Origin: Mycetocola zhadangensis
GTDB taxonomy: Bacteria > Actinomycetota > Actinomycetes > Actinomycetales > Microbacteriaceae
Assembly (NCBI RefSeq): GCF_003668565.1
Contig: NZ_RCWJ01000003.1
Coordinates: 124,001-188,000 of the forward strand
Reading direction: 5' to 3'
Length of the DNA: 64,000 bases
Shown here: in pieces, positions 42,242-56,914 of the stretch
Layout: each line of letters begins with the position of its first letter
Position numbering within the stretch: position 1 is the stretch's first letter
The notes under the pieces: generated by a model
What the model saw: the letters and a program-made list of their open reading frames with translations, nothing else
Told to the model about the DNA's origin: nothing
Database searches by the model: none
Translations under genes and position numbers: made by a program

Positions 42242-43786
42242 ATGTCCGATATCACCACCTTCTTTCGCCAGGCCGCCGACATCGTCGGTGCTGACAATGT
42301 CGTCACGCCGGAGACCGAGGCAGGCTACGCCGACCCGTACCCGCTGCACACCGGCCGTCCGAGCGCCGGCGGCGTGCGGCCAGCGAGCGTCGAAGAGGTA
42401 CAGGCGATTGTGCGCCTGGCCAATGAGACGGGCACCGCGCTCTGGACGGTGTCTCGAGGCAAGAACCTGGGTTACGGGGGCGCTGCACCGCGAACGGGCG
42501 ATCAGATCGTCCTCGACCTGAGCCGCATGGACGCCATCCAGAAGGTCGACCCCGAGCTCGCCTACGCCGTTATCGAACCCGGCGTCACCTTCTTCAACCT
42601 GTTCGACCACATCCAGGAGAACAAGCTCTCCCTCTTCGTCTCGGTTCCTGCCCTCGGGTGGGGTTCCGTGCTCGGCAACGCCCTCGACCGCGGCTACGGC
42701 ATGTCACCCTACGGCGACCACGTGCAGCAGCTGTGTGGTCTTGAGGTCGTCCTGCCGGACGGGTCGCTTCTCAGAACCGGGATGTGGGCCCTCGAAGACA
42801 GCCCACTGGCCAACGTGTTCAAGGGCGGTTTCGGGCCGAACATCGACCAGCTCTTCACCCAGTCCGGGCTCGGAATCGTCGTTCGCGCGGGGATCTGGCT
42901 CATGCCGTGGCCCGAGGTCTTCGTGTCAGGCGACATCAAGGTCGACCGGATCGAAGATCTCCCTCTCCTCATCAACCGCATTGCCGACCTTCGGCGCCGT
43001 GAAGTGTTCCAGAACAACTGCCTTGTCGGCAACGTGGTTCGCGCCGGAACGATGAACGGCCCGCGCTCACGCTGGTACACCGGTGACGGCTCCATCCCCG
43101 ACGACGTCGTCGAGGAGATGAAGGAAAAGATGGGCATCGGCCACTGGAACGCGCGATTCGCGCTCTATGGCGAGCCCGGCATGATTCGCGAGCGGATCAA
43201 GATCATTGAAGAAACATTTGACCTGCCCGGTTTCACCCTCAACACCCGCGTGTACGAGGGCAAGGACGGTGCAAAGGTCACCTACGACGACATCGCCCCG
43301 GCCGACCAGACCACGATGGCTGGAGTACCGACGCTCAAACCGCTCGACACGATTGGCTGGTACGCCGAAGACGGCGGACACATCGACATTGCTCCGCTGG
43401 TGCCTGCCCGAGGTGAAGAGGTCCTCGACTTCTACGGCGAGGTCAAGGCGCTCTACACCAAGTACGGTTTCGACCTCTATATCGGCTATCACGTTTACGC
43501 CCGCCACCTCGTTCACGTCACCATGATCTTCTTCGAGAACGGCAACGAGGAGCAGCTTGCCCGCGCCCGCGCGCTCTACGAAGACGTGCGGCAAGCCGCC
43601 GCACGTCGCGGATACACGCCGTACCGGGGGCACATCGACAACATGGATGACATTGCTGCGGAGTTCTCGTTCAACGACAACGCCGTGCTCCGGTTCCAGG
43701 AGAAGCTCAAGGACGCACTCGACCCGAATGGCATCCTCTCCCCCGGCAAGCAGGGTGTGTGGCCAGCCCGACTGCGCAACTCCTAG
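42242..43786 (+). CDS. Vanillyl-alcohol-oxidase-family flavoprotein (eugenol/4-alkylphenol oxidase-like)
   Basis: 514 residues from ATG 42242 (GGGAG upstream). FAD-binding PCMH fold with VSRGKNLGYGGAAPRTGDQIV, VIEPGVTFFNLFD, VPALGWGSVLGNALDRG and GMSPYGDH, closely resembling vanillyl-alcohol oxidase and eugenol oxidase. Near the C-terminus GYTPYRGHIDNMD keeps the Tyr-Arg pair that binds the phenolate, and RHLVHVTMIFF offers histidines for covalent FAD linkage. It should hydroxylate or oxidise the benzylic carbon of a para-substituted phenol. Exact substrate is unknown. LysR gene divergent upstream. Confidence 0.9.
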   Translation: MSDITTFFRQAADIVGADNVVTPETEAGYADPYPLHTGRPSAGGVRPASVEEVQAIVRLANETGTALWTVSRGKNLGYGGAAPRTGDQIVLDLSRMDAIQKVDPELAYAVIEPGVTFFNLFDHIQENKLSLFVSVPALGWGSVLGNALDRGYGMSPYGDHVQQLCGLEVVLPDGSLLRTGMWALEDSPLANVFKGGFGPNIDQLFTQSGLGIVVRAGIWLMPWPEVFVSGDIKVDRIEDLPLLINRIADLRRREVFQNNCLVGNVVRAGTMNGPRSRWYTGDGSIPDDVVEEMKEKMGIGHWNARFALYGEPGMIRERIKIIEETFDLPGFTLNTRVYEGKDGAKVTYDDIAPADQTTMAGVPTLKPLDTIGWYAEDGGHIDIAPLVPARGEEVLDFYGEVKALYTKYGFDLYIGYHVYARHLVHVTMIFFENGNEEQLARARALYEDVRQAAARRGYTPYRGHIDNMDDIAAEFSFNDNAVLRFQEKLKDALDPNGILSPGKQGVWPARLRNS

Positions 43787-43794
43787 CGCGCGAG

Positions 43795-43970
43795 CCACTG
43801 AGGTCACTGAGGCCTCCATCAAGGAGGTCTCAGACACACTGCCTGCCATGCGACTCGCTCTGGATCCGGAGGCTGGCTCGAAAGCGATCGAGCAGCTCGG
43901 GCGATTCAACATGGTGACGAAACCGCTCACGGTGGACGAGATCATTTGGAGCGCTGCCCCGCACGCCTAA
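43795..43970 (+). pseudogene. Orphan C-terminal fragment of an NMT1/SsuA-type solute-binding protein
   Basis: The frame ending at TAA 43970 encodes EVTEASIKEVSDTLPAM... and closes with LTVDEIIWSAAPHA. Its last 55 residues align with the C-termini of the two intact solute-binding lipoproteins in this window (ends DDILWTEAPRK and KEVIWSEALTTD), including the D-P/A-L-x-x-F/x-D-x-I-W pattern. No start codon, signal peptide or N-terminal part is present, and the frame runs into the oxidase gene. I read it as the tail of a deleted paralogue. Confidence 0.68.
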
Positions 43971-44000
43971 TGGATCTCGCTTCATCGGAGCGCTCAGAGG

Positions 44001-44034
44001 GAAGTGCCGGGTGGTTTCAACCACCCGGCACTTC
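44001..44034 (+). terminator. Terminator after the fragment (twin 1)
   Basis: 14-bp stem GAAGTGCCGGGTGG / CCACCCGGCACTTC with a TTTCAA loop (16 bp if the inner TT/AA pair). Confidence 0.75.
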
Positions 44035-44107
44035 TCATGTGCTCCCCACCGCACAGCCTCGCGACGCGGCCGGATTCCTCAGGATCTCGCGTGACCACGG
44101 CACTCAC

Positions 44108-44143
44108 AGAAGTGCCGGGCAGGTCACACTGCCCGGCACTTCT
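44108..44143 (-). terminator. Terminator after solute-binding protein (twin 2)
   Basis: 15-bp stem AGAAGTGCCGGGCAG / CTGCCCGGCACTTCT with a 6-nt loop, 26 nt beyond the minus-strand stop of the solute-binding protein. Its outer arms are identical to the preceding terminator. Confidence 0.78.
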
Positions 44144-44169
44144 CTGCGCGTGTTACGACCGTTGGCATG

Positions 44170-45171
44170 TCAGTCCGTGGTCAGTGCCTCGCTCCAGATC
44201 ACTTCCTTGGATGTCTTCACGTCCTCTTTGTTCTCGACAGCACCGAATTGCACAAGGGCGTCGGTGACCGACTGGGTGACGCCATTGGGAATCTCAATTC
44301 GGAACTCGGTCTTCATCGCAGCTGCCTGTTCGACTGTGATGCCGCTGACTTCCTGCCGGATCTTGAGAACAGCGTCATGGTTCGAGTCGTCTTCGTAGAA
44401 CGCCAGCGCCTTCGTCATAGCCTCGACGAACTTGTGTACGGTGTCCGGGTTTGCGTCCAGCCACTGTTGCGTTCCTGCCCACAGCGTGATCGGCAGTCCC
44501 GCCCGGAACTCGCGAGTCGGGTTTGCGATGACCACGTTTTCCTGGACAGTCGAGATTTGCTCGTAGAAGCTGTCGGACGGGAAGACCGCATCGACCTGTC
44601 CGCCTTCAAGCGCGGCCTGCATGCTCGCGTAGGGAAGCTTGATGGCTTCGAAGTCGTCTGCAGCAAGCCCAGCCGCTTCGAATGCCTGCTGGGTGACGAT
44701 GTGGGGTCCGCCACCGAGGTCGTTGTACGCGATCGTCTTTCCTGAGAGGTCGGCGACCGACTCGATACCACTGTCGCCGCGAACGATGATTCCACTCGTG
44801 TCATAGGCGCTGCTCACGACTCCCTGGCCGGCGACAGCGAGAACGGGCATGCCCTCGGCAGTCGCGGTGACGACGGTGTCCCAGGCGGTGATTGTGAGGT
44901 TCGCCGAGCCGCCCATGATTTGCGCAAGGTTGTCCTGCGGCGTTCCGCCCGCCTTGATCGTGACGTCGAGACCCACCTCATCGAAGTAGCCCTCCTGCTC
45001 GGCGATGTAGGGCAGTTCGTAGTTGATAGGGGCATGGATGATCGTGAGAGCGCTCGTGCCGCCATCCGTGGACTCGGACTCGCCCGCGGCTGCCCCTGCG
45101 CATCCCGTGGCGAGCGCAGTCACACCCACTACGGCGAGAACGCCTGCCGCCCTGAATGTCCGTCGTGTCAT
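44170..45171 (-). CDS. ABC-importer solute-binding lipoprotein (NMT1/SsuA-like)
   Basis: 333 residues from ATG 45171, with AAGGAAGG 8 nt upstream. Signal peptide MTRRTFRAAGVLAVVGV with lipobox LATGC (Cys about 24), so a surface lipoprotein. The NMT1/THI5-like fold shows IIHAPINYELPYIAEQEGYFDEVG, GSANLTITAWDTVVTATAEG and LPYASMQAALEGGQVDAVFPSD. It pairs with no permease of its own: it lies downstream of an aldehyde dehydrogenase. It is about half identical by eye to the binding protein at 59562-60551, so it may share that importer. Confidence 0.9.
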   Translation of the reverse strand: MTRRTFRAAGVLAVVGVTALATGCAGAAAGESESTDGGTSALTIIHAPINYELPYIAEQEGYFDEVGLDVTIKAGGTPQDNLAQIMGGSANLTITAWDTVVTATAEGMPVLAVAGQGVVSSAYDTSGIIVRGDSGIESVADLSGKTIAYNDLGGGPHIVTQQAFEAAGLAADDFEAIKLPYASMQAALEGGQVDAVFPSDSFYEQISTVQENVVIANPTREFRAGLPITLWAGTQQWLDANPDTVHKFVEAMTKALAFYEDDSNHDAVLKIRQEVSGITVEQAAAMKTEFRIEIPNGVTQSVTDALVQFGAVENKEDVKTSKEVIWSEALTTD

Positions 45172-45248
45172 TGAAGTGTCCTTCCTTGTCATGCCTGTCC
45201 GTCTTTGGACCTGCATCGCTGCCGAAATGGCAGCATGATTGTGAGGCG

Positions 45249-46745
45249 TCACGCGCCGATGTTCATGGCAACCGACGTCAGCTCGGTGTACGCCTCGACG
45301 CCTTCACGCCCGTTTTCCTTGCCGTAGCCCGACGCTTTGACCCCGCCAAATGGCATGTTTGGGTCCATACCCGAGTGGGTGTTGACTCGCACATTGCCCG
45401 CGGCCAGCCGCCGGGCAATCCGGTGCGCACGGGCCAGGTCCCTCGTCCACACGTAGGCCGAAAGCCCGTACACCGAGTTATTGGCACGGCCCACAATCGC
45501 GTCAAGCTCCTCTGGGTCGTCAAAGGTCTGGGTGACCAGCACGGGTCCGAAGATCTCTTCCGCAACGACCGACATCCCTGGCGCTGCGTTCGTGAGCACC
45601 GTCGGCTGCACAAAGAAGCCCGGCCGATCGGGAGCGAAGCCGCCAGCAGCAAGCTCTGCCCCCTGCTCCAGTCCCTCGCCGATGTAGCGCAGGACCCGTT
45701 CGCGTTGGCGGGCGGAGATGAGCGGCCCCATCGTCGTGCCCTCCTCGAGCCCGCCCCCGAGAGACAGCGCCTTCGCCCGTTCCGAGATACCGTCGATGAC
45801 CCGATCGGCAACCGAGCTCTGCACGTACAGCCGCGACCCTGCTGCACAGATCTGGCCCGAATTGCTGAAGATGCTGAGAGCCGCACTGTCAATTGCCCGG
45901 TCGAGATCGGCATCCGCGAAAATCAGAACAGGCGATTTGCCGCCGAGTTCCAGCGAGAGACGTTTCAGGCTCGCCGCAGTGGTGCGCTGGAGGTGCTGGC
46001 CCACCGCGGTCGACCCGGTAAACGAGACTTTGTCGACGAGCGGGTGGGTGGCGATAGCCTCCCCTGCCACCGTGCCGAGGCCGGGAACGATGTTGATCAC
46101 TCCGGCCGGGAAACCCAGGTCACACACGAGTTCCCCGAGCCGCGCGGCCGTCACCGGAGTCAACTCAGCGGGCTTCAGGACGACAGTGCATCCGGCCGCC
46201 AATGCCGGCGCGAGTTTCGCCACGGCCATGACAAGCGGGTTGTTCCACGGCACGATGAGCCCCGCGACACCGAGCGGGCGACGCATCGTATAGGTGTGCC
46301 ATTCTCCCGGTAGGGAAACGTCACGGGTTTCGCCATTGAGCTTCGTGGCCCATCCTGCGTTGTACCGCAGGATGTCTATCGCCTGCGGAATCTCAAAGCT
46401 ACGGGTGACCCTCAGTGGCTTGCCTGTGTTGAGCGATTCCAGCTGAGCGAACTCTTCCAGATGCTCTTCGAGCGCGTCGGCCAGACGCCACAGCAAGCGA
46501 CCTCGCACAGAGGGCGGCATGGTGGACCATTCGCCCTCGAGAGCCCGACTCGCCGCACGGACCGCTCGGTCCACATCGTCAGCCGACGCCCCAGTGAATG
46601 TGCTGATCACCTGGCCTGTTGACGGATCGTGAATGTCAAGCGCGTCACCCGAACCGTCGACCCAGTCGCCGTCGATGAGCAACTTCAGTGGCTGGGTGAA
46701 GATCTGAGGTTTCGGGATGGTCAGCGTCGTTGTCTCGTGGGACAT
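45249..46745 (-). CDS. NAD(P)-dependent aldehyde dehydrogenase
   Basis: 498 residues from ATG 46745 (46748 also possible), behind AAGGAG. ALDH superfamily motifs: IVPWNNPLVMAVAKLAPALA, KPAELTP, SFTGST, catalytic Glu in LELGGKSP (about 258-265), catalytic Cys in SGQICAAGSR (about 293-302), and EIFGPVL. It oxidises an aldehyde to an acid, possibly an aromatic aldehyde made by the VAO or GMC oxidase. The solute-binding protein follows in the same operon and the TetR gene lies just upstream. Confidence 0.94.
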   Translation of the reverse strand: MSHETTTLTIPKPQIFTQPLKLLIDGDWVDGSGDALDIHDPSTGQVISTFTGASADDVDRAVRAASRALEGEWSTMPPSVRGRLLWRLADALEEHLEEFAQLESLNTGKPLRVTRSFEIPQAIDILRYNAGWATKLNGETRDVSLPGEWHTYTMRRPLGVAGLIVPWNNPLVMAVAKLAPALAAGCTVVLKPAELTPVTAARLGELVCDLGFPAGVINIVPGLGTVAGEAIATHPLVDKVSFTGSTAVGQHLQRTTAASLKRLSLELGGKSPVLIFADADLDRAIDSAALSIFSNSGQICAAGSRLYVQSSVADRVIDGISERAKALSLGGGLEEGTTMGPLISARQRERVLRYIGEGLEQGAELAAGGFAPDRPGFFVQPTVLTNAAPGMSVVAEEIFGPVLVTQTFDDPEELDAIVGRANNSVYGLSAYVWTRDLARAHRIARRLAAGNVRVNTHSGMDPNMPFGGVKASGYGKENGREGVEAYTELTSVAMNIGA

Positions 46746-46773
46746 CATCGTCTCCTTGGTGTTCAGTAGGTGG

Positions 46774-47361
46774 TCAGTGCGAAGCGGCGATGGCTTCGGC
46801 CCGATGCTCGATGAGCCACCAGAGCTGCTTCGCCATCTCGGTTCCGTCAGGAGCGGGGCTGCGGCTCAGCCATCCGATCACGACGGAGAGTGTCGCGCCG
46901 GCGACGAAGTCGTAGTAGGTCTCTCGATCGACGGGCCATTCTCCGGAGCCGGGCAGGCGATGCATGGAGGCGGCGACCGCGCTACGCAGAACCTCACGCA
47001 TGCGGTGGAGGAAAGCCATACTTCCTGTGTCCTGCAGCATCGCTCGATAGAGCGCTGCCCGTTGCGCGATGACACGGAACACCTCGACGAGGTCGTCAGG
47101 CGGATCATCACTCCCGCGCTTCACTCCGAGCTGGAGGGCAGCGGCGGCTTCACGCACGCGGTCAAGCTCTCCCTCCATCGCCGCGATGAGAAGTGCGTCC
47201 ATCGTGCCGAACCGGTCGTAGAACGCAACCCGGCTCACTCCGGCCCGCGAGCTCACAGCGGCGACGGTGAGGTCAGCCACGTCCATCTCTTCAAGCAGGC
47301 CGAGCGCGGCTGCGATAAGCGCCGTCCGGGTTCGGGTGACCCGGGGATCAACATCGGTCAT
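46774..47361 (-). CDS. TetR-family regulator
   Basis: 195 residues from ATG 47361 (GGAAG 8 nt upstream; a GTG at 47370 is the alternative). HTH at about 10-55: RTRTALIAAALGLLEEMDVAD, AAVSSRAGVSRVAFYDRFG. The C-terminal half is a helical ligand domain. It lies 28 bp upstream of the ALDH gene in the same direction and is divergent from the GMC oxidase gene. Palindromes in the divergent gap suggest autoregulation and control of the oxidase. Confidence 0.9.
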   Translation of the reverse strand: MTDVDPRVTRTRTALIAAALGLLEEMDVADLTVAAVSSRAGVSRVAFYDRFGTMDALLIAAMEGELDRVREAAAALQLGVKRGSDDPPDDLVEVFRVIAQRAALYRAMLQDTGSMAFLHRMREVLRSAVAASMHRLPGSGEWPVDRETYYDFVAGATLSVVIGWLSRSPAPDGTEMAKQLWWLIEHRAEAIAASH

Positions 47362-47380
47362 GGCCGTCACTTCCTTTCAC

Positions 47381-47410
47381 CTGTAAGCTACAGTAACTAA
47401 CAGCTGTAAG
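47381..47410. promoter_or_regulatory. TetR operator candidates between tetR and GMC oxidase
   Basis: CTGTA-AGC-TACAG (47381-47393) is a perfect inverted repeat and CTAACAGCTGTAAG (47397-47410) a near-perfect one; both contain CTGTA(A)/TTACAG, so they look like two sites for one regulator. Confidence 0.55.
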
Positions 47411-47444
47411 CAAGATTTACGAACAACACTGTCATGGAGGACAC

Positions 47445-48980
47445 GTGAACCAAGAGTGGGATGTCATCATCGTCGGCGGCGGCTCTGCCGGATCGGTACT
47501 CGCCAACAGGCTCAGCGCGGACGGGTCCCGCCGCGTTCTCCTGCTTGAGGCCGGGCTCGACTACCCGGGCGCCGAGATCCCTGAGTTCCTGCGGCACCGC
47601 ACCCTCCGCACGGGACTGGCCATGGCTCCGTCGCACGAGATGGAACCTGACTACTACTGGACTGACGTGCGCGCCAGGCGGCGCCCCGAACGCGAAGCCA
47701 TGCTCTATGCGCGAGGCAAGGGCCTCGGTGGCAGTTCCAGCGTCAATGGGCTGATTGCCGCGCGACCGGAGCCCGGAGACTGGCGCCGGTGGGAACAGAG
47801 CGGGGCCGAGGGCTGGGGGTACGAGCAGATGCTGCCCCCACTGAACCGCCTCGAGACCGATCTCGATTACCCGGACGCACCGTTTCATGGCGGCACCGGC
47901 CCGATCCCCATCCACCGAGAGGCCCGCTCCGGATGGGGTGACGTCGACAACGCCCTGGACCAGGCGGGTGAATCCCTCGGATACGGCTGGGATGACGACT
48001 ACAACGGACCGAACACGACGGGTCGAAGCAGGTACCCTGCAAACCATACGAGGGATCTGCGACGGGTCTCGACCAATCACGGGTACCTCGATCCCGCACG
48101 GGGCAGGGCCAACCTCGAGATCCGAGGACACGCCCAGGTCGACCGGGTTGAGTTCACCGGAGAAACCGCGCGCGCTGTCCGACTGCTCGATGGCAGCAGT
48201 GTGCCCCTGGCACCCGGGGGTGAAATTATTCTCTCGGCCGGTGCCGCCCACTCGCCCGCCATACTCACGCGCAGCGGCATCGCTCCGGCGGCGCAGCTTT
48301 CTCGCCTGGGCATTCCGATGCTGGCCGACCTCCCGGTGGGTGAGGGCGCACAGGACCATGCGATCGTGTTCGCACAGTTCCACCCGCGAGAGAACAGGGT
48401 CGTTCCACCGGGAATGCGGCCAACACATGTCGCCATTCGGTTTTCGAGTGAGTTGCCGGGCACCGGGCGCAACGACGTGGCGATTCTTGCCACGAACCAC
48501 AACTATTGGTTTGGCAACGACCAGGCCGGTCTCGCCGTCCAGCTCAACCAGTCCCTCTCGCGCGGTTCGCTGTGGCTGCCCGATGCCGACCCTCGAACCG
48601 CGCCGGTCATCGAACAGCGGCTGCTCACGGACCCGACCGACTATGTGCGGATGCTCGACGGGCTTGCGCGAGCCGAAGACCTCCTGCAGCGTCCGGAGTT
48701 CGTTGCGCTGCGGGAGGGCGACCTTGTCATGCCCCGCTCGCGTGCCGAGTTGCTCGGGCAGGTGAAGGACGTGATGCACCTGTCGTCGACCGCTCGCATG
48801 GGCGCCGAGAACGATCCCGCGGCCGTCGTCGATCCGCTCTGCCGCGTGCGAGGCCTCTCCGGACTGCGGGTGGTCGACGCGTCGATCTTCCCCAGCATCG
48901 TAAGTGCGAACATCAACATCGCGGTGATCGCCGTCGCCGAGCGCGCCGCGGAGCTGATGCTGCAGGACAGCCGCCACTGA
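47445..48980 (+). CDS. GMC-family FAD-dependent oxidoreductase
   Basis: 511 residues from a GTG with GGAGG upstream. Rossmann motif DVIIVGGGSAGSVLANRLS (6-24), GMC signature ARGKGLGGSSSVNGLI (about 88-103), second signature GAAHSPAILTRSGI, catalytic His in MHLSSTARMG (about 445) and C-terminal FPSIVSANINIAVIAVAERA. GMC enzymes oxidise alcohols to aldehydes or ketones. In this cluster the oxidation of a 1-(4-hydroxyphenyl)alkanol to a ketone is plausible. Convergent with the esterase operon. Confidence 0.93.
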   Translation: MNQEWDVIIVGGGSAGSVLANRLSADGSRRVLLLEAGLDYPGAEIPEFLRHRTLRTGLAMAPSHEMEPDYYWTDVRARRRPEREAMLYARGKGLGGSSSVNGLIAARPEPGDWRRWEQSGAEGWGYEQMLPPLNRLETDLDYPDAPFHGGTGPIPIHREARSGWGDVDNALDQAGESLGYGWDDDYNGPNTTGRSRYPANHTRDLRRVSTNHGYLDPARGRANLEIRGHAQVDRVEFTGETARAVRLLDGSSVPLAPGGEIILSAGAAHSPAILTRSGIAPAAQLSRLGIPMLADLPVGEGAQDHAIVFAQFHPRENRVVPPGMRPTHVAIRFSSELPGTGRNDVAILATNHNYWFGNDQAGLAVQLNQSLSRGSLWLPDADPRTAPVIEQRLLTDPTDYVRMLDGLARAEDLLQRPEFVALREGDLVMPRSRAELLGQVKDVMHLSSTARMGAENDPAAVVDPLCRVRGLSGLRVVDASIFPSIVSANINIAVIAVAERAAELMLQDSRH

Positions 48981-49020: not shown

Positions 49021-49062
49021 GTTACCGCTCGTGGCCGAGCAGCAGCGCGCTCGCCGGGAAGG

Positions 49063-50481
49063 CTAGCGCCGAGCGACGAGCCCCAACTCGCTGGGCGTCT
49101 CCGAGCGCACCGCGTCGCCATCGAACTCCACACGGGCCGGGTGGAGCGGATCAAATCGTTCGCCGCCCTCTCCTTTGACACTGGGGATGCCGCTTGTCAC
49201 GAACCCCAGGAACCAGTCCTGGAGTGCGCGTGACGTTTGGTCGAACACCGCGTCGTCGAGTCCGTCGAGCATCGGCGCATCGTGCCAGACCTCTCGGTCG
49301 CCAAAGAGAAACGGCAGCGGGAAGCAATGGGGGCTGAGGGCACCAGGTAACGGGCTTTGCAGCGAGAGGCTCGCCACATAGGTCGGAATACCAGCCGCCG
49401 TGGTTGCCTCCGCCAGTTCCAGGTTGGCCAGGCGGAACTGGTGCAGGGTCATCGCTTCGATCATGCGTTGTTTCGGCGTCGCGTCCGGACGCTTCTGCGC
49501 GATCCATTCTGAGACCTTCGCTGGGTCGTCGAATTTGGCACCGATGAAGCCGCCGACACTCTCCGGTGAAAACGCCTGGTCCGGCGCCGGGAAGAGAAAC
49601 GCTGCCGCTTCCTCACTGGTGCTGAGCAGGGCGAGTTCGGAGATGTGCAGGCGCGACGCCACGGAAGTGTAATCGTGCAGATCGCCAGTGACCTCGCCCG
49701 CGGCGGCGGGCATGAGAGCCATCCCCCGGCCGGCGTATGCCTGTGACAGTGCGGATTGAGCGGCCAGGACCTGCTCGATGGCTGCGCCGTCGAGGCCGCC
49801 GATACCGTCAAGCTCGCTCGCGACAAGGTCGCGCCGCTCCGCGTAAGCGCCAGCCGCGAGCGGAGGCTCCCACGGCAAACTGATCAGCGCCGCACGAGTG
49901 AACAGCCCCCGGGTCTCCTCGAGGGCAGACAGGGCGAATGCGTACCAGGCTCCGGCGGAATCCCCGCTGAGGGTGACCTGGTTCGGGTTCCCCCCGAATT
50001 CGGCGATGTGCTCGTTCACCCAGCGCAGGGCGACAATAAGGTCGCGAAGACCGCCCTGCGACTCGGCGGGTTGCCCGGTCGACCCGAGGTGTCCGAGCGC
50101 ACCGATCCGGTAGTTGACAGTGACCAGCACCACTCCCGCCCGCTCGACCAGCTCGGGCGATGTGAACCAGCGCGCATTTCCGCTGCCAGTCATGAACCCT
50201 CCACCTGGCACAAAAACCACCACGGGAGCGTTTTTCGCGCCTAGAGGAGCTTGCACTCTCAGCTGGAACGCGTCCTCACTTTGAGCGATTTCGGTGTTGG
50301 CTCCACCAACGAGCGGATTCAACCCGCCCGGTCGCTGCGGAAAGGCGAGGGGCTGCTCCGCCACCGTGTCGAACGCGCGCAGCGTGACGTCGGAGAAGCG
50401 CGAGGACGCATCCGTACGCTCGCCATACCGAAAAACCGAGTCGAGGCATCCGCTATTCGATCTCGCAGGAGCCTCGGTCAC
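49063..50481 (-). CDS. Type B carboxylesterase
   Basis: 472 residues from a GTG that overlaps the monooxygenase stop (GTGA). Alpha/beta hydrolase with oxyanion loop VFVPGGGFMTG (about 89-99), nucleophile Ser175 in SGDSAGAWY, NYRIGALGHLG, and SPHCFPLPFLFGD carrying the candidate catalytic His. Coupling to a HapE-like Baeyer-Villiger enzyme mirrors the hapE-hapF pair of 4-hydroxyacetophenone degraders: the esterase would hydrolyse 4-hydroxyphenyl acetate (or an analogue) to a hydroquinone and an acid. Confidence 0.92.
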   Translation of the reverse strand: MTEAPARSNSGCLDSVFRYGERTDASSRFSDVTLRAFDTVAEQPLAFPQRPGGLNPLVGGANTEIAQSEDAFQLRVQAPLGAKNAPVVVFVPGGGFMTGSGNARWFTSPELVERAGVVLVTVNYRIGALGHLGSTGQPAESQGGLRDLIVALRWVNEHIAEFGGNPNQVTLSGDSAGAWYAFALSALEETRGLFTRAALISLPWEPPLAAGAYAERRDLVASELDGIGGLDGAAIEQVLAAQSALSQAYAGRGMALMPAAAGEVTGDLHDYTSVASRLHISELALLSTSEEAAAFLFPAPDQAFSPESVGGFIGAKFDDPAKVSEWIAQKRPDATPKQRMIEAMTLHQFRLANLELAEATTAAGIPTYVASLSLQSPLPGALSPHCFPLPFLFGDREVWHDAPMLDGLDDAVFDQTSRALQDWFLGFVTSGIPSVKGEGGERFDPLHPARVEFDGDAVRSETPSELGLVARR

Positions 50482-52481
50482 TTGAGGAACTCATAATCGT
50501 TCTCGTTGACCTGCTCGGTGACGAGCCAGTACTCACTCGTTCGGTATGGCCATACCTGTGACACCCGGTTGAACCGGTTCTTGTACCAGGTCTTCACGTA
50601 CGGCTGGCCCCAGGTCATCGCGTAGTTGCCTTCATCGACCCAGGCAATGTGGCGATCGAGCGCGTCCTGCTTGAGGTCGAGCGCCTTGGCGTCGCGAACG
50701 ATGAGCTCGCGGATCGCCTTTACCGCGTATTCCGCGGCCCGCTCGATCATGAAGTGGAGTCCACCCGCGACAACACCACCGGTGTTCGGGCCGAGCAACA
50801 TGAACAGGTTGGGGAAGTTCGGGACAGTGATGCCCGCGAATGCTTTCGCGTCGCCGCCCCAGTAGTCGTGAATCTCCAGCCCACCCCTGCCGACGATTTC
50901 GATCGGGTCGAGATAGTCAGACGGCCGGAATCCGGTCGCATAGATCACGACGTCGACGTCCAACTTCTCGCCGTCACCGGTGATGAGCCCGTCTGGGGTG
51001 AACTCGACGAGACCATTCGAGATGACCCGAGTGTGTGGCTTGCGCAGGGCAGCCGCCCAGACGCCGTTGTCACGCAGCATGCGCTTGGCGGACGGCGGAT
51101 AGTTGGGAATGGCAACGTCAAGAAGATCGGGACGACCCTCGTACTGCTGCTCATACCGCTCGGTAATGGCCTGGCGGAAGTCTTCGTTAGCTCGAGAGAC
51201 GCTGGCGGGAGCGCCCGTCCAGCCATCCTCGGCCTTGGCGATGTGCAGTCGACCGTCAATACCGCCGGCGGTCACCCAGAGCCGGAACCAGTGGCCGTAG
51301 TGCGGCACCTTGGCGTGCAGCCATTCAGCCGACTCGCCCACCAGGTCGTGATAAGTCGCGGCCGGAAGCATCCACGGCGCGCTGCGCTGGAAAACGTACA
51401 GCTCGGAGACTTCGTCGGCGATCGCCGGCACGATTTGATAAGCACTCGCCCCTGTGCCGATGACGGCCACCCGTTTGCCCGCAAGGTCGACATCGTGGTT
51501 CCACTCCTGGGAGTGCATCTGAGCCCCCCGGAAGGTGTCTTGGCCCGGCCATTCCGGAATCATCGGATGGTCGAGCTGGCCGACCCCCGTCATGATCGCC
51601 TGGAAGCGACGCGTGGTCTCTTTTCCGTCGGTCAAAGTTGTGGCGAGCCAGGTGCCGGACGCTTCGTCAAACTCGGCCTTGAGAAGTTTCGTTCCGAATT
51701 CAACGGTGTCGTCGTTCCAGCCCGCACGTGTGAACACCTCCTCGAGATACTCGAGCACTTCGTGGCCCTGGGCGAACTGGTGTGGCCAGTCGGTGCGCTG
51801 GGCGAACGAGAAGCTGTACCCGTATGTAGGAGTGTCGAGGCGTACTCCCGGGTAGTTGTTCTTCCACCATGTGCCACCCGTGCGGTGCGCTCCTTCGATC
51901 CAGGTGAACGGGAGACCCGCTTCCTGGAGCCGCCATGCCGCCGCGATACCGGAGATTCCCGCTCCGACGATCAGCACCTCAAACTCGCGGCCTTCGGCGA
52001 TGTCGTCGAAGTTCCAGTCAGCCTGACCGTTTTTGTCTGGGGCAAGGTCCAGTTCGTGTTTGAGCTGCCCTGCGTAGCCCGCATCGTGCGAGCGTCCGCC
52101 GGTGAACCAGGCGAGGATCTCGTCGGCCATCTCCTGCGGCAAAACATCAACAGAACGGATGCCGTCGTCGCGCAGCCGCTGAAGGCCGGCAAGACCCACT
52201 TCGCGAGCGCGTTCCTGCTGCGCCGGCGTCATTCCACCGTGCATCTCGAGGTACGGTCCCATGGGCGGGAGAGGCGGCACGAGCCCCGGTTCGAGAATGC
52301 TCGTGTCGCGAAGCGCAGCCGCGAGTGACGCGAGCAGAACAGGGAGCTCCGCCCGCGCGACGAAGGCGCGCAGCTCATCGTCGCTCTCGGTAATGGCCGG
52401 GTACTCGTCGACCCAGTAGAGGTCGCCGAAACGGCCCTCCGCGTCGGTGGACTTGGGCGCTGGTGTCAGGCTCATGGTCAT
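50478..52481 (-). CDS. Baeyer-Villiger monooxygenase, 4-hydroxyacetophenone-monooxygenase-like
   Basis: 667 residues from ATG 52481 (GAGGAG 6 nt upstream; longer frame to 52715 overlaps the next gene). The first 130 residues form the extra N-terminal domain typical of HAPMO (SDDELRAFVARAELPVLLASL... GGMTPAQQ-RARE). Then FAD site LIVGAGISGIAAAWRLQ, BVMO fingerprint FRGAQMHSQEW (about 345-355) and NADPH site AVIGTGASAYQ. It inserts oxygen next to the carbonyl of an aryl ketone to form an aryl ester. Third gene of a four-gene operon and coupled to the esterase. Confidence 0.93.
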   Translation of the reverse strand: MTMSLTPAPKSTDAEGRFGDLYWVDEYPAITESDDELRAFVARAELPVLLASLAAALRDTSILEPGLVPPLPPMGPYLEMHGGMTPAQQERAREVGLAGLQRLRDDGIRSVDVLPQEMADEILAWFTGGRSHDAGYAGQLKHELDLAPDKNGQADWNFDDIAEGREFEVLIVGAGISGIAAAWRLQEAGLPFTWIEGAHRTGGTWWKNNYPGVRLDTPTYGYSFSFAQRTDWPHQFAQGHEVLEYLEEVFTRAGWNDDTVEFGTKLLKAEFDEASGTWLATTLTDGKETTRRFQAIMTGVGQLDHPMIPEWPGQDTFRGAQMHSQEWNHDVDLAGKRVAVIGTGASAYQIVPAIADEVSELYVFQRSAPWMLPAATYHDLVGESAEWLHAKVPHYGHWFRLWVTAGGIDGRLHIAKAEDGWTGAPASVSRANEDFRQAITERYEQQYEGRPDLLDVAIPNYPPSAKRMLRDNGVWAAALRKPHTRVISNGLVEFTPDGLITGDGEKLDVDVVIYATGFRPSDYLDPIEIVGRGGLEIHDYWGGDAKAFAGITVPNFPNLFMLLGPNTGGVVAGGLHFMIERAAEYAVKAIRELIVRDAKALDLKQDALDRHIAWVDEGNYAMTWGQPYVKTWYKNRFNRVSQVWPYRTSEYWLVTEQVNENDYEFLK

Positions 52482-52503
52482 CTCTTGCTCCTCAAGGTCG
52501 TGC

Positions 52504-54159
52504 TCATGCGACGTCGCGCCGCTCAGATGAATCAAGCTGGGGCGAGCGAGCCTCACGCGCTCGATCGTCGATAAAGTTACGAAGCTCTTCAACCACGCGC
52601 TGTTCGTCGGATGCCGCGAAGACGGCTGCCACGTAGCGATCCGGTCGCACCGCGATGAAGACCGGTTCTCCCCCGGTTGCTCCGGTGAGGGCGGCTGCGG
52701 TCTCGGCAAGGTCAATTACCTCGGCGCCTGCCGCTGACTTCTGTGGCGCAACCCCTGGCGGAAGCAGGTGGATGCGTGTCGCGTCAATACCGTTCCAGTA
52801 GGCGGATGCTTTCTCGGGGTTGATGCCGACGCCAATCAGCGCCCACCCTCGCCCGAGATACGTGTCGAGACCCGCACGATTGCCGTCGACGTCCGTGACG
52901 GTCGGTTGGCTGAGCGCGCGCCCGATCTGAACTCCGGCAAACTTCGGACCGTCACCAGGCAGCACGGCCACGCCGGCCGAGTAGTCGGGCGGGGTGATGA
53001 ACCTCATGTTGGCCAGATAGCGCCGGGCGCTGGGAACGAGATTGACGAGCCGTACGACGGCGTCACGTGTCTGGGTAGCAAGTGGGTTGGTCGCCATCAC
53101 CACTGCACCGACCCGGCGGGAAATTTTCACCATCTTCGCCCCGTGGGCGCGCCGCTCGATCTCGTAGCTGTCGAGGAGCCGCTCGCTGGCGCCACCCTTG
53201 ATCGCCTCAATGAGCTTCCAGGCCAGGTTGGCCGCGTCGCGGACACCGGCGTTGAGTCCCTGGCCAGCGAACGGCGGCATGAGGTGCGCGGCGTCGCCGA
53301 CGAGGAATGCCCGGCCGGACCGGTAGTTGTGCGCCACCCGCTGGTGGGCAACGTACACGGCGGCACGGCGCACATCTCCGGGGAGCAGCTTGTTTCGGAA
53401 TGCGGGAACGAGGAGGTTACGGATGTTGGTCGGCGTGGTCATCTCGTCAGGGTCTTCGTGGTCGAAGAGCATGAACTCAATTCGCAGGCGACCGTTCACG
53501 CCCGGGACGAGTACGTACGGACGCTTCCCGTCGCAGTGAAACTCTGCGAACGGCTCGTGCTGCGCGCGCTCGTTCAGCAGGTCAACGACGATCCACCGTT
53601 GCGTCTGGGTGCTGCCATCAAGGCGGATGCCGAGCGCTGAGCGCGTGAAGCTTCGCCCGCCGTCCGCTCCGACCAACCACTCGGCTGAGAGCTGCCGGGT
53701 GACGCCGCGCTCGGTGACGTGAACGGTAACCCCGTTCACGTCATGGGTGATTGCGGTTGCCTCCGTACCGAGAAGTAACGTCACGCCGGGGTGCTCGACC
53801 GCCCGGTCGAACAACAGCTGCTCGAGGATGGGCTGGTCAAATTGCGTCTTGGCCGGGTGCCCCAACCGCGACGGGCTTGGCTTCGCCTCCGCGAGGAGGC
53901 GACCGTTAAGCCCGAAGTACCGGCTGCCGGTGTCAAGCAACGACTCGGACTTCAACGCGTCCGCGATACCCAGCTGCTCGAACACCCGGAAGGATTCGTC
54001 TTGCAGACTGATGGCACGAGGCAGGTCACCCGGCGCCAGAGCCCGCTCGACGACGGTCGTGGCCACACCTGCATCAGCGAGAAGAAGCGCCGTCACCAGT
54101 CCGACTGGGCCCCCTCCGATCACAATGACTCGGGACGGTTCGGGTATTCGTTTCTCCAC
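52504..54159 (-). CDS. FAD-dependent aromatic hydroxylase (MhpA/PheA-like)
   Basis: 551 residues from GTG 54159 with AAGGAGG 4 nt upstream; an upstream ATG would put that site inside the gene. PHBH-fold class A monooxygenase: VIVIGGGPVGLVTALLLADAG (FAD), WLVGADGGRSFTR (DG motif) and GDAAHLMPPFAGQGLNAG (GD motif, about 280-297), with a C-terminal thioredoxin-like domain (about 400-540). It hydroxylates a phenol with NAD(P)H. Ahead of an extradiol dioxygenase gene it would turn a hydroquinone or phenol into an ortho-diol such as hydroxyquinol. Confidence 0.92.
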   Translation of the reverse strand: MEKRIPEPSRVIVIGGGPVGLVTALLLADAGVATTVVERALAPGDLPRAISLQDESFRVFEQLGIADALKSESLLDTGSRYFGLNGRLLAEAKPSPSRLGHPAKTQFDQPILEQLLFDRAVEHPGVTLLLGTEATAITHDVNGVTVHVTERGVTRQLSAEWLVGADGGRSFTRSALGIRLDGSTQTQRWIVVDLLNERAQHEPFAEFHCDGKRPYVLVPGVNGRLRIEFMLFDHEDPDEMTTPTNIRNLLVPAFRNKLLPGDVRRAAVYVAHQRVAHNYRSGRAFLVGDAAHLMPPFAGQGLNAGVRDAANLAWKLIEAIKGGASERLLDSYEIERRAHGAKMVKISRRVGAVVMATNPLATQTRDAVVRLVNLVPSARRYLANMRFITPPDYSAGVAVLPGDGPKFAGVQIGRALSQPTVTDVDGNRAGLDTYLGRGWALIGVGINPEKASAYWNGIDATRIHLLPPGVAPQKSAAGAEVIDLAETAAALTGATGGEPVFIAVRPDRYVAAVFAASDEQRVVEELRNFIDDRAREARSPQLDSSERRDVA

Positions 54160-54212
54160 GATGCCTCCTTGCATGAACGCGGTTGAGCCGACCAGAGCGG
54201 CGGTCGGCTAGA

Positions 54213-55058
54213 TCAGCCCTTGACCATCCGGTTTTTCAGCGTGCCGAGACCGGTAACCTCGACTTCGACGAGGTCGCCGTCCTGGAGGAATGTCGGAGGA
54301 TCCATGAAGAGGCCAACACCGCCGGGGGTTCCCGTAACGATGATGTCGCCGGGCTCCAACTTCGTGAACGTTGTCACGTATTCGATTTGGGCTGGGATGT
54401 CGAAGATGAGGTCAGCGAGTGTCGCCTGCTGGCGCACCTCACCATTGACACGCGTTGTGATCTCCAGCGCTTCGATGTCTCCGATATCGGATGCAGGCAC
54501 GTAGTAGGGTCCGAACGTTCCGGACTCGGGAAAGTTCTTGCCCGGGATCCACTGGCCCGTGTGACGCTGCCAGTCCCTGGCCGAGAAGTCGTTGAATACC
54601 GCATAGCCAGCGACGTGGTCAAACGCGTCCTCGCGGGACACCTTGAAGGCCGGCTTCCCGATCACCAGCGCGACCTCGCCCTCGTAGTCGTACTTTTCGC
54701 TCTCTGCAGGGATGGTTACGTCGGCACCGTGTGGCCACAGGGTGTCTGAGAAGCGCGAGAACACGGTGGGGAACTCAACGTCGGCCCGGCCGGTCTCTTC
54801 CTTGTGACTCCGGTAGTTGACACCGATACAGATCACCTTGGGAGATCCGCCGACGACTGGAACGAATTCTGTGCCTTCCTCGGCCTGTGACGGAGCGTCG
54901 GCGTAGTCGGGCGTGGCACTCAGAAGGTCACCGACGATGGCGTCTCGCAGGGTGTCCGCCACCTGGCGGCCGCTCGGGCCGAGGTCGAAGAGAGTCCCGC
55001 CTTCTTCGACGCCCCATGTGACGTGACCACTGGTCGTTTTGTAGCTGACGTATCGCAT
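54213..55058 (-). CDS. Fumarylacetoacetate-hydrolase-family protein
   Basis: 281 residues. FAH fold with metal-ligand pattern: YDYEGEVALVIGK (two Glu), NDFSARDWQ (Asp), GKNFPESGTFGPYYV and the terminal TGTPGGVGLFMDPP. Members hydrolyse C-C bonds of acylpyruvates or hydrate/decarboxylate ring-cleavage products. It is the first gene of the operon FAH, hydroxylase, BVMO, esterase, and would act on the product of the extradiol dioxygenase. Divergent from the GntR regulator. Confidence 0.93.
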   Translation of the reverse strand: MRYVSYKTTSGHVTWGVEEGGTLFDLGPSGRQVADTLRDAIVGDLLSATPDYADAPSQAEEGTEFVPVVGGSPKVICIGVNYRSHKEETGRADVEFPTVFSRFSDTLWPHGADVTIPAESEKYDYEGEVALVIGKPAFKVSREDAFDHVAGYAVFNDFSARDWQRHTGQWIPGKNFPESGTFGPYYVPASDIGDIEALEITTRVNGEVRQQATLADLIFDIPAQIEYVTTFTKLEPGDIIVTGTPGGVGLFMDPPTFLQDGDLVEVEVTGLGTLKNRMVKG

Positions 55059-55131
55059 TTATGTCCCCTCTGACATCGCTGGCAAATCATAGGTCCGGAA
55101 CGCGGACGCGGTCACTACTATACATCGATTG

Positions 55132-55153
55132 TGCATTCCTGACGAGTAATGCA
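55132..55153. promoter_or_regulatory. TGCA-N14-TGCA operator candidate (site A)
   Basis: TGCATT-N10-AATGCA in the divergent gap between the FAH operon and the GntR gene, equivalent to TGCA half-sites separated by 14 nt. The same TGCA-N14-TGCA spacing recurs before the dioxygenase gene. Confidence 0.6.
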
Positions 55154-55186
55154 TTATTTAATCCCCCGACTTACCGGAGATGGCCC

Positions 55187-55192
55187 TATATT
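55187..55192 (+). promoter_or_regulatory. -10 box TATATT for leaderless GntR gene
   Basis: TATATT is followed by GCATAT and the ATG at 55199; there is no Shine-Dalgarno. Confidence 0.5.
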
Positions 55193-55198
55193 GCATAT

Positions 55199-55900
55199 AT
55201 GGCACGACGCGGCGATTCCGATACCCTCAGCACCAAGGTGCGCGAACGTTTACGGCTAGACATCCTCAGCGGGCTCTGGCACCCGGGCGAAAAGCTCCAG
55301 CTGGCCGCCCTGTCGGCGCACTATGAGACGAGTAGCACCGTGGTGCGGGAGGCGCTCACCCGCCTTACAGGCGCCCGACTGGTTGAGCTCAAGCCCAATC
55401 GAGGATTCTTCGTGCCGACACTGTCGATCGACGAGCTGCGAGACTTCAACGAGCTCCGATGCCGCGCCGAGGAATTTGGCATACAGCTGGCCATCGAGCG
55501 AGGCAGCCTTCAGTGGGAGGCAGAAGCCCACGCTGCGCACCACACCCTCGAACGCACGCCGCGTCACGCATCAGACGGTAGCGGGCGCGTAACCGAGGAA
55601 TGGCTGACCGCCCACGAGGCATTCCACGCCAAGCTGCTCTCGTCCTGCGGGCTGCCCGTGCTCATCGAGCTCTCGGCCACGCTGGCCGACGGCAACTCCA
55701 TGTATCGCCGCTGGGCCGTGCCGACTAAGGAGCTCCTCGGCCGCAACATCGAGGACGAGCACCGCGAGATCCTGGATGCCGCCACTAATCGGGATGCGGC
55801 GCGTGCGGGAAAACTGCTTCGACAGCATTACAGCCTGACCATGGAGCTCATCATGAAGGCGGGCCTGCTGCCGGAAGCGCTTGGCGACTCCGCCGCCTGA
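55199..55900 (+). CDS. GntR-family (FCD) regulator of the aromatic operon
   Basis: 233 residues from ATG 55199, 7 nt downstream of a TATATT box. Winged HTH (about 10-75): RERLRLDILSGLWHPGEKLQ, TSSTVVREALTRLTGARLV. FCD domain (about 85-220): ELRCRAEEFGIQLAIERG, HEAFHAKLLSSCG, EHREILDAATNRD. Divergent from the FAH/hydroxylase/BVMO/esterase operon and 106 bp upstream of the dioxygenase gene, so it probably controls both. TGCA-N14-TGCA sites on each side support this. Confidence 0.9.
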   Translation: MARRGDSDTLSTKVRERLRLDILSGLWHPGEKLQLAALSAHYETSSTVVREALTRLTGARLVELKPNRGFFVPTLSIDELRDFNELRCRAEEFGIQLAIERGSLQWEAEAHAAHHTLERTPRHASDGSGRVTEEWLTAHEAFHAKLLSSCGLPVLIELSATLADGNSMYRRWAVPTKELLGRNIEDEHREILDAATNRDAARAGKLLRQHYSLTMELIMKAGLLPEALGDSAA

Positions 55901-55935
55901 ATTTGAGTGCTGGGAGAACCAGGGTGGCCAACTTA

Positions 55936-55959
55936 GTGCATTATTGGTAAACTTTGCAC
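55936..55959. promoter_or_regulatory. GTGCA-N14-TGCAC operator candidate (site B)
   Basis: GTGCA (55936-55940) and TGCAC (55955-55959) are inverted across 14 nt, 71 nt upstream of the dioxygenase ATG. Its left part AGTGCATTATTGG resembles AGTGCATAGTTGG, found 71 nt before the flavin reductase ATG. Confidence 0.6.
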
Positions 55960-56006
55960 AATCGAGGCTTTTAGTATTCGCCTCATCCACCGGCGATAGG
56001 AGCACC

Positions 56007-56897
56007 ATGGCATTCGGGGTCATCAGCGAGATCGGCTATATCTCTCTTCATACGAGCGATATTGAGGCCTCAACCGCCCACGCGAAGGACATTCTCGGTC
56101 TCGTAGAAACCGGGCGAAGCGGCAACGCCGTTTATATGTCATCGGCGGCAAAAAAGCACCACGAGATGGTCTACATCGACGCCCCGAGACACGGCGTCGG
56201 CCAAATTGGGCTCATCGCATCCGGACGATCCGGCCTCAACCTTGCGCGCCAGAGAATTCGGGATGCGGGCTACCCGATCGTCTCCGAGTCGCCGCTTCAC
56301 GCGGGGGTTGAGGACGGCTTCGCATTCATCGGACCCGAGGATTTCATCTTCGAGATCTACATCGGCCCAGAAAGTGCGGACATTCTGGCGAGCGGACACG
56401 CTCCCGACAGGTTCGGTCACGTCAATCTTCACCCGAAGCACTTGCAGGCCATGCTCGACTTTTTCGTCACCACCCTCGACTTCCGCGTGAGCGATGTCAT
56501 CGGCGATGACTTCGCGTACTTCTTGCGATGCAACGCTGAGCACCACGGCATCGCACTGATCAAGGGCAAAGGCTGGCTCCACCACCACGCGTGGCAGGTT
56601 CAGTCAATCGCCGAACTGGGCAAGGTCGGTGACCGACTTCACGAGCGCGGTCTGCGCCTCCTGATGGGGCCGGTACGACACGGCGCCGGGCACAATATGG
56701 CCGCGTACTATGTTGAGCCCACCGGCGCCGTCGTCGAGCTGTACGCCGATCTCGAGCACATCTACGACGACGAGCGGCCTCCCATCGTCTGGCCGCGCGA
56801 CAACCTCGCATGGGCAACGAAGTGGTCAATCTACGACTTCACCGAGTTCCGCTCGCATGGATTGTTCCCGGCCACCGAGGCCGTGACCGCGAAGTAG
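56007..56897 (+). CDS. Type I extradiol dioxygenase (VOC family)
   Basis: 296 residues from ATG 56007 (AGGAG 4 nt upstream). Two VOC modules as in BphC/catechol 2,3-dioxygenase. The metal triad is visible: His138 (FGHVNLHP), His193 or His194 (LHHHAWQV) and Glu244 (PTGAVVELYAD). It would cleave an aromatic diol next to the hydroxyls with O2 and Fe(II). Alone downstream of the GntR gene and followed by a terminator. Likely ring-cleavage step of the pathway encoded on the opposite strand. Confidence 0.93.
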   Translation: MAFGVISEIGYISLHTSDIEASTAHAKDILGLVETGRSGNAVYMSSAAKKHHEMVYIDAPRHGVGQIGLIASGRSGLNLARQRIRDAGYPIVSESPLHAGVEDGFAFIGPEDFIFEIYIGPESADILASGHAPDRFGHVNLHPKHLQAMLDFFVTTLDFRVSDVIGDDFAYFLRCNAEHHGIALIKGKGWLHHHAWQVQSIAELGKVGDRLHERGLRLLMGPVRHGAGHNMAAYYVEPTGAVVELYADLEHIYDDERPPIVWPRDNLAWATKWSIYDFTEFRSHGLFPATEAVTAK

Positions 56898-56914
56898 ACG
56901 GATAGGCAAAATAG

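Follow-up and report, generated by a model that had tools for sequence, protein, structure and literature searches.

Here we describe a catabolic island in the actinobacterium Mycetocola zhadangensis, most of which lies in a stretch of 64,000 nucleotides (the window), positions 124001-188000 of contig NZ_RCWJ01000003.1 (C3) in a genome of 3.32 Mb distributed over five contigs. It is near certain that the island exists, that it carries the core gene set listed below, and that it is catabolic in nature. The best explanation for the whole, to which we would give even chances, is that a horizontally gained block of 29 kb would import and degrade a para-substituted phenol by way of a ketone, a Baeyer-Villiger ester, a hydroquinone-type phenol and a trihydroxybenzene, with extradiol cleavage and an enzyme of the FAH family at the end of the route. 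A 4-alkylphenol or a 4-hydroxyaryl ketone is a plausible substrate. Gene families, motifs, synteny and the insertion are observed; the substrate, the order of the steps and every reaction are predicted from them.

The insertion and its gene content

The borders of the island provide the first layer of evidence. Four congeners share a SpoU-type methylase gene (40297-41100) at 84-93% identity, and in each of the four stretches compared it directly adjoins a gene for a thiamine pyrophosphate (TPP) enzyme; in M. zhadangensis the latter starts at C3:194504, 29 kb from the methylase gene. A fifth congener (G003) also has the methylase gene, the adjacency having been compared in the other four. When both borders are aligned with the empty sites of two congeners (G002 and G004), the breakpoints fall near window position 41,110-41,128 and C3:194,375. 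Borders at 41,115 and C3:194,374 give an insert of 29,260 bp, of which about 6.37 kb extends past the window end at 64,000; its G+C content is 62.7%, against 65.3% and 64.0% in the flanks. A gain in the lineage of M. zhadangensis is a simpler reading than a loss in the congeners. The Baeyer-Villiger monooxygenase (BVMO) of the island has no match better than E 4.6e-9 in the five congeners, whose whole genomes were searched for two island proteins, the BVMO and the FAH-family enzyme.

No integrase or transposase family was found by Pfam scan among the 23 island proteins, no tRNA in the window, and no Rfam family at gathering score in 36000-64000. Furthermore, no target-site duplication was seen by eye in the junction alignments, the repeat search having covered each border separately and not between borders.

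The 23 called genes of the island encode enzymes, regulators and an ATP-binding cassette (ABC) importer. For eighteen of them, at 41148-63779, gene calling relied on open frames and on codon composition; all 23 proteins were scanned against Pfam, and most of the 18 also against NCBIfam. In the list below, FAD and FMN are flavin adenine dinucleotide and flavin mononucleotide, VAO and PCMH are vanillyl-alcohol oxidase and p-cresol methylhydroxylase, and L027 and L030 are related loci described in the next section.

41115..64000, no strand: island part inside the window; flanks adjacent in four congeners, homology to two empty sites ends here
41148..42095, minus: LysR regulator, divergent from the VAO-like gene (Pfam; a 77% homologue adjoins VAO in L030)
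42140..43786, likely start 42242, plus: VAO/PCMH-family 4-phenol oxidoreductase (FAD_binding_4/FAD-oxidase_C; phenolate triad)
44170..45252, minus: NMT1/SsuA-like substrate-binding lipoprotein SBP1 (about 48% identical to SBP2)
45249..46748, minus: aldehyde dehydrogenase (ALDH; Aldedh), accessory (Pfam; best NCBIfam StyD, below cut-off)
46774..47370, minus: TetR regulator, accessory (Pfam)
47445..48980, plus: GMC oxidoreductase, accessory (best NCBIfam MftG, 329 bits, cut-off 387)
49063..50481, minus: carboxylesterase with GDSAG nucleophile motif (Pfam; 4 bp overlap with BVMO)
50478..52481, minus: type I BVMO (fingerprint FRGAQMHSQEWN, KR motif, N-terminal extension)
52504..54174, minus: class A FAD hydroxylase, MhpA group (FAD_binding_3; 458 bits to PRK06183.1-5)
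54213..55058, minus: FAA-hydrolase family enzyme, here FAH (Pfam; NCBIfam matches below cut-off)
55199..55900, plus: GntR/FCD regulator, trimmed start (Pfam; recurs in relatives)
56007..56897, plus: two-domain type I extradiol dioxygenase (VOC; Pfam, and phmmer against catechol 2,3-dioxygenase)
57054..57869, minus: ABC importer ATPase (Pfam; homologues adjoin the cluster in L027, 70%, and L030, 85%)
57911..58672, minus: ABC importer permease (Pfam; relatives L027, L030)
58724..59599, minus: ABC importer permease (Pfam; relatives L027, L030)
59562..60617, minus: NMT1-type substrate-binding lipoprotein of the ABC importer, SBP2 (Pfam)
60973..62289, minus: NtaA/DmoA-family FMN-dependent monooxygenase (468 bits, cut-off 280; in Citricoccus and Kocuria, homologues of 63-65% adjoin VAO)
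62469..63779, plus: flavin reductase with HsaB/HpaC-like domain (56-75% homologues in Leucobacter, Citricoccus and Kocuria loci)
L044:1363-2757 (fetched stretch of C3), beyond the window: MmgE/PrpD protein (48-66% homologues in four relative loci)

Past the window end lie, besides MmgE/PrpD, genes for HpaB, a second VOC protein and a second hydroxylase. The frame of the BVMO opens at 52715, with a likely start at 52481 (667 aa, behind GAGGAG), and that of the VOC enzyme probably starts at 56007.

An earlier note on this DNA had proposed a degradation island, possibly complete, at 42242-56897. Its claim of a catabolic island holds, as an acquired block that constitutes a single insertion relative to four congeners, and all the families that it named are present, with matches above curated Pfam cut-offs together with PDB matches. 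Its bounds were too short at both ends: LysR lies just outside them, and the importer, the NtaA/DmoA monooxygenase and the flavin reductase continue to 63779, with more beyond the window; TetR, GntR and an NMT1-type binding protein are also encoded within the region noted.

Recurrence of the cluster in relatives

As a query in a contig scan the BVMO found no relative; the scan with the hydroxylase then gave ten loci at 63-69% identity, the most similar named one being L030, from a Microbacteriaceae metagenome-assembled genome (MAG). Such a scan returns close relatives only, and the ten loci are not an unbiased sample. The BVMO accompanies the hydroxylase in all ten (50-78% identity). The esterase occurs in 5/10, VOC in 4/10 and MmgE/PrpD in 4/10; HpaB (67-73% conserved) and the flavin reductase occur in three each. 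FAH is present in seven loci as fetched and in nine after two were extended, VAO in three, two of them only after extension, and the NtaA/DmoA monooxygenase in two, after extension; where contigs are short (L031, L036), these counts may miss genes.

The recurring set thus comprises hydroxylase-BVMO-esterase, FAH, VOC, GntR, HpaB, MmgE/PrpD and flavin reductase, with a VAO-like gene in three other loci. In Citricoccus and Kocuria, where each locus was assembled from two overlapping fetched pieces, the order is FAH, NtaA/DmoA monooxygenase, VAO, GntR, HpaB, VOC, then an MFS transporter, MmgE/PrpD, esterase, BVMO and hydroxylase. This repeated synteny bears out the earlier grouping of VAO, BVMO, esterase, hydroxylase, VOC and FAH as one set. 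MmgE/PrpD also recurs with the cluster, yet the proposed pathway holds no step for it.

It could be argued that unrelated catabolic genes were gathered by chance in a plastic chromosome region, as the several regulators and strands, and the resemblance of GMC-TetR-ALDH-SBP1 to an extra insertion, might suggest. We consider this very improbable, because all ten hydroxylase loci carry the BVMO and the block is one clean insertion relative to four congeners; the co-location is repeated in the Microbacteriaceae MAG, Leucobacter, Citricoccus and Kocuria.

FAH at E <= 1e-80 was found in 3/397 other sampled genomes of the family (G122, G115 and G177). The G122 locus (L027) carries hydroxylase, BVMO, esterase, FAH, VOC, GntR and the ABC importer; those of G115 (L028) and G177 (L029) carry VOC, FAH, importer, flavin reductase and an HsaA-like monooxygenase, and no hydroxylase, BVMO or esterase in the stretches fetched. 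The Sad sulfonamide pathway was considered for these last two and put aside, the HsaA-like resemblance being all that is shared. At E <= 1e-120, the BVMO was found in its own genome only among 396 sampled genomes of the order (own included); a search of 394 genomes of the class gave 23 matches including its own, with one other above 45% identity. Among the best plasmid matches BVMO relatives reach 40-46%, and the four inspected stand in other gene settings. In the plasmid locus of strain GD02, an MhpA-type hydroxylase (36%) and a GntR gene lie close to the BVMO. A Rhizobium plasmid (p5 of Rhizobium sp. NZLR1, from lentil; L040), typed as conjugative, encodes a hydroxylase (55%), a VOC enzyme (58%) and FAH (41%) and no BVMO, with a second VOC/FAH/monooxygenase set adjoining; the lower module thus occurs in another phylum.

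Part of the island does not recur. A search of 20 relative loci at E 1e-5 gave no match for GMC or TetR, and for ALDH one full-length match (33%, Kocuria) and a 56-residue piece in L029. In L030 and L053 (Microbacteriaceae MAG) the esterase, VAO and LysR are neighbours as in the window, minus GMC, TetR, ALDH and SBP1, so that these four look like an extra block of 4.8 kb; SBP1-like binding proteins do occur in relative loci, two of them in L030. The earlier assignment of GMC to an alcohol-to-ketone step, and of ALDH to the pathway, thus loses ground, and we regard both as doubtful pathway steps. The best NCBIfam matches of ALDH are two phenylacetaldehyde dehydrogenase (StyD) models, at 582 bits (cut-off 850) and 519 bits, both below cut-off. 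Together with a GMC alcohol oxidoreductase in the same block, they could speak for an arylalkanone with a side-chain ketone, such as raspberry ketone, from which BVMO and esterase would yield a 2-arylethanol that GMC and ALDH would convert to an arylacetate before ring hydroxylation and cleavage. Relative loci keep BVMO and esterase without GMC or ALDH, save the single Kocuria ALDH, and the VAO-like enzyme would be left without a role, which makes this substrate quite improbable.

Three further observations concern the neighbourhood. Between the VAO-like gene and SBP1, at window position 43985-44158, two tandem hairpins with arms of 16 and 18 nt (GAAGTGCCGGG...) probably form a two-way terminator. 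The two NMT1-type binding proteins, about 48% identical, contrast with a single permease pair and ATPase; L030 likewise has two, and one of the island's two may be for a second substrate. A leader of about 130 bases before the TPP-enzyme gene, immediately to the right of the island at L044:7874-8007 (C3:194373-194506), is strongly conserved in M. zhadangensis and four congeners, with invariant blocks such as GCGCTCGGAAAAGGGGCG and CGCGAGACATATACGGA; it has no Rfam match up to E 1 and is possibly a regulatory leader or promoter.

The proposed upper route: ketone, ester and phenol

In the proposed pathway, the VAO-like flavoprotein would oxidise the benzylic carbon to a ketone, the BVMO would place an oxygen between carbonyl and ring to give an ester, and the esterase would free a hydroquinone-type phenol and a carboxylic acid. 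The last two steps, a Baeyer-Villiger reaction on an aryl ketone and cleavage of the ester, are likely. The type I fingerprint FxGxxxHxxxW(P/D) is found in the BVMO as FRGAQMHSQEWN, where the last position alone deviates (N); it is D in five other loci, the pattern having returned BVMO motifs for 6/20 sources, which is a limit of the pattern. The Rossmann motifs GAGISG and GTGASA, a KR motif and an N-terminal extension of about 165 residues are also present. HapE, the 4-hydroxyacetophenone monooxygenase, is defined by activity on that ketone and by a long N-terminal domain, and the BVMO may or may not be of this type. The BVMO frame overlaps by 4 bp that of the esterase, a protein of 472 aa.

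In the hap pathway of Pseudomonas fluorescens ACB, a BVMO and an esterase reportedly turn 4-hydroxyacetophenone into hydroquinone, which is said to be opened by a dedicated hydroquinone dioxygenase. BVMO and esterase are common to both; in place of that dioxygenase the island encodes an FAH hydrolase together with a class A hydroxylase and a VOC enzyme of catechol type. The hap pathway is cited in both PMC3727088 and PMC9618137.

The best solved relatives of the VAO-like enzyme in a PDB search are the 8S7N series, deposited with PMC7617285, from which the residue roles in VAO/PCMH enzymes are also taken; by our own reading these chains would be variants of the vanillyl-alcohol dehydrogenase of Marinicaulis, given an Asp at chain position 150, the number it bears in Table 1 of that paper, and differences at 151. 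In the comparison in PMC7617285, the closest solved VAO relatives are Marinicaulis flavus vanillyl-alcohol dehydrogenase, eugenol oxidase (EUGO) and PCMH, with which the window enzyme shares the phenolate-binding Tyr/Tyr/Arg (Y112, Y495 and R496). Judged by its spacing of 81 residues to the Tyr-Arg pair that follows it, the same as in EUGO and BpfA, the FAD-linking His is conserved. According to Table 1, oxidases have Asp/Glu-Leu as the pair at flavin N5, PCMH has Ala-Pro and the Marinicaulis dehydrogenase Asp-Pro; here it is Ala171-Leu172, which departs from the oxidase signature, and the window protein shares the sequence SVPALGWGSV with three cluster homologues at the site of the Asp in the solved chain. 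A histidyl-FAD and Leu, as in oxidases, thus accompany an Ala at N5, as in PCMH, a combination absent from the seven enzymes of that Table. With triad and His kept and Ala at N5, the protein would be a 4-phenol oxidoreductase that is, by these marks, neither a standard oxidase nor a standard dehydrogenase. In the sections of PMC12507022 drawn on here, a homologue (FBO) with Asp replaced by Gly in its FAD-binding motif lost FAD on purification and had weak bisphenol F activity; as read from the legend, this Gly lies in the same column as Ala171.

The relatives also bear on this step. At E <= 1e-40 the genome of G122 yields no VAO-family match, and beside its esterase lie a Pyr_redox_2 protein (a reductase), a flavodoxin, a P450 and a short-chain dehydrogenase/reductase (SDR); L030 has VAO plus a 62% homologue of the same P450. 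Since a P450 system and an alcohol dehydrogenase can perform the conversion of a benzylic CH2 to a ketone ascribed to VAO, the exchange fits a ketone-making role, and gene content suggests that the P450/flavodoxin/reductase/SDR set would be its functional substitute.

The same upper chemistry could serve a two-ring phenol resembling bisphenol F, a lignan or a stilbenoid, in which VAO and BVMO would yield a diaryl ester, then hydroquinone and a 4-hydroxybenzoate-type acid, one half proceeding via hydroxylase-VOC-FAH and the other via HpaB and the second VOC/hydroxylase pair. Indeed, the island has two hydroxylase/VOC pairs and HpaB, and as far as the parts of PMC12724174 and PMC12507022 covered here extend, bpfABCD of Sphingobium yanoikuyae DN12 (PCMH-type flavoprotein, BVMO, alpha/beta hydrolase) and VAO-family BpfA of Microbacterium sp. 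F2 share with it this chemistry and the series of VAO/PCMH flavoprotein, BVMO and hydrolase. DN12, unlike the island, has a flavoprotein/cytochrome pair and a small alpha/beta hydrolase (301 aa, not a 472-aa carboxylesterase); the Ala of the window enzyme corresponds to an Asp (D152) that BpfA keeps; and those parts of the two papers describe no lower triad. Besides, the second VOC enzyme and second hydroxylase are without close match in relative loci (best 31% and 38%). We therefore hold the two-ring reading, in both its diaryl ester and its division into halves, to be unlikely, and a monoaryl substrate to be somewhat favoured. Rather improbable is its extended form, a complete path with a hydroxylase and an extradiol enzyme for each half and the VAO as a new mechanistic class (histidyl-FAD, no acid at N5) interchangeable with P450/flavodoxin/SDR.

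The proposed lower route and what the island would mean

From the hydroquinone-type phenol, the class A hydroxylase would form a 1,2,4-trihydroxybenzene, the VOC dioxygenase would cleave it to a 2,4-dihydroxy-6-oxo-dienoate, and the FAH-family enzyme would hydrolyse the diketo acid to pyruvate and malonate semialdehyde, or to acetylpyruvate and formate. Further hydroxylation or side-chain steps would fall to the NtaA/DmoA monooxygenase and to HpaB working with the flavin reductase. For the trihydroxybenzene extradiol route, the chances seem to us evenly balanced.

The three families lie within 4.4 kb. The hydroxylase reaches 391.4 bits against a cut-off of 390 for the broad subfamily PRK06183.1-3, and 458 bits, below the cut-off of 546, for the best MhpA equivalog (PRK06183.1-5). 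Pfam matches the second half of the VOC protein, and phmmer aligns both domains to catechol 2,3-dioxygenase; in that alignment, read by eye, six columns are identical to 1mpy, which we take to be the 2-His-1-Glu metal site and the second-sphere His/His/Tyr. Its score to TIGR03211 (catechol 2,3-dioxygenase) is 124 bits, below the cut-off of 320. The FAA hydrolase comes closest to the NCBIfam models of a 2,4-diketo-acid hydrolase and of HpaG, without reaching either cut-off. In the genome, intradiol (PF00775) matches are confined to one place on contig C5, outside the island, in two adjacent stretches that are perhaps the subunits of protocatechuate 3,4-dioxygenase; a hydroxyquinol intradiol gene thus does not accompany the island. 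No hydroquinone dioxygenase was found beside the BVMO, all 23 island genes belonging to other Pfam families and VOC to the catechol 2,3-dioxygenase class.

The earlier suggestion of a lower route other than hydroquinone dioxygenase is supported, with a precedent in HcdABC of Pseudomonas mandelii 7HK4 (PMC6222606). According to the portions of that paper used here, a class A hydroxylase, a type I extradiol enzyme and an FAA hydrolase (31.2 kDa), the same three families as in the island, act on a 2,3,5-trihydroxyphenyl ring, and the extradiol cleavage gives a 2,4-dihydroxy-6-oxo-dienoate that is consumed by HcdC. By our own derivation, the same cleavage of hydroxyquinol would yield 2,4-dihydroxy-6-oxohexa-2,4-dienoate, a diketo acid of the type cut by FAH-family hydrolases. 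The hcdABC operon has three genes, without VAO, BVMO or esterase, and its substrate is 3-(2,4-dihydroxyphenyl)propionate; the likeness is one of family.

In a route similar to that of homoprotocatechuate, HpaB and the flavin reductase would 3-hydroxylate a 4-hydroxyphenyl compound to a catechol, VOC, ALDH and FAH would correspond to HpaD, HpaE and HpaG, and the BVMO branch would only trim the side chain. The conservation of HpaB in three relative loci, scores of 104 (HpaD) and 124 bits (C23O) for VOC, 157 (HpaG-C) for FAH and 482 (HpaE) for ALDH, and the HpcH/HpaI aldolase genes of the stretches from Citricoccus and Nocardioides are consistent with it. None of these scores reaches its equivalog cut-off, and relatives do not conserve the ALDH. 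Hydroxylase, BVMO and esterase are retained in L027 and L045, where the fetched stretches contain no HpaB match. The HpcH/HpaI gene of M. zhadangensis that lies closest to the island belongs to the ordinary chromosome and is also present in 3/4 congener stretches. Such a route has, in our view, a low probability. Other routes were put aside. The Hpe pathway of Rhodococcus rhodochrous GD02 degrades 4-hydroxyacetophenone and acetovanillone by phosphorylation and carboxylation, and in the parts of PMC9618137 covered only its acpAB acetophenone branch uses BVMO and esterase; no carboxylase or kinase is among the 23 scanned proteins. The A-ring routes of naringenin (fde) and isoflavones (ifc) follow a similar logic, as far as their descriptions in part allow a comparison.

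The trihydroxybenzene scheme itself meets several objections. The VAO-like enzyme is without the oxidase Asp/Glu, and benzylic oxidation to a ketone may not be its reaction; HpaB and MmgE/PrpD are without an assigned step. The hydroxylase/VOC/FAH triad also occurs without BVMO in Rhizobium sp. NZLR1, and VOC/FAH without hydroxylase or BVMO in the fetched stretches of L028 and L029, so that the presence of the triad is no proof that hydroquinone enters it. VOC is found in fewer than half of the hydroxylase loci as fetched, and in Streptomyces (L037) hydroxylase and BVMO are joined to a BphD-like hydrolase and an MhpD-like hydratase, which point to a substituted ring in that locus. The products of HcdC were not seen in the work described in PMC6222606, and the likeness to Hcd concerns families, not sequences. 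Of the earlier reading of the substrate route, then, the co-location of upper and lower enzymes stands; it had left out HpaB, MmgE/PrpD, the NtaA/DmoA monooxygenase and the flavin reductase, yet these recur in relatives.

Each part of the island is of a known kind, and no description of the combination was found in the open literature searched, subscription literature being outside its scope. If the scheme is true, a Baeyer-Villiger upper path and a trihydroxybenzene extradiol path in one block would constitute an enzyme set for using aryl ketones and alkylphenols, compounds that arise from lignin breakdown and bisphenol use. The core of the island occurs in several actinobacterial genera, and the exact empty site allows a clean test of the growth gain that it would confer. 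Moreover, the group of VAO-like enzymes with Ala in place of Asp is relevant to the question of how a flavoenzyme comes to act as an oxidase or as a dehydrogenase.

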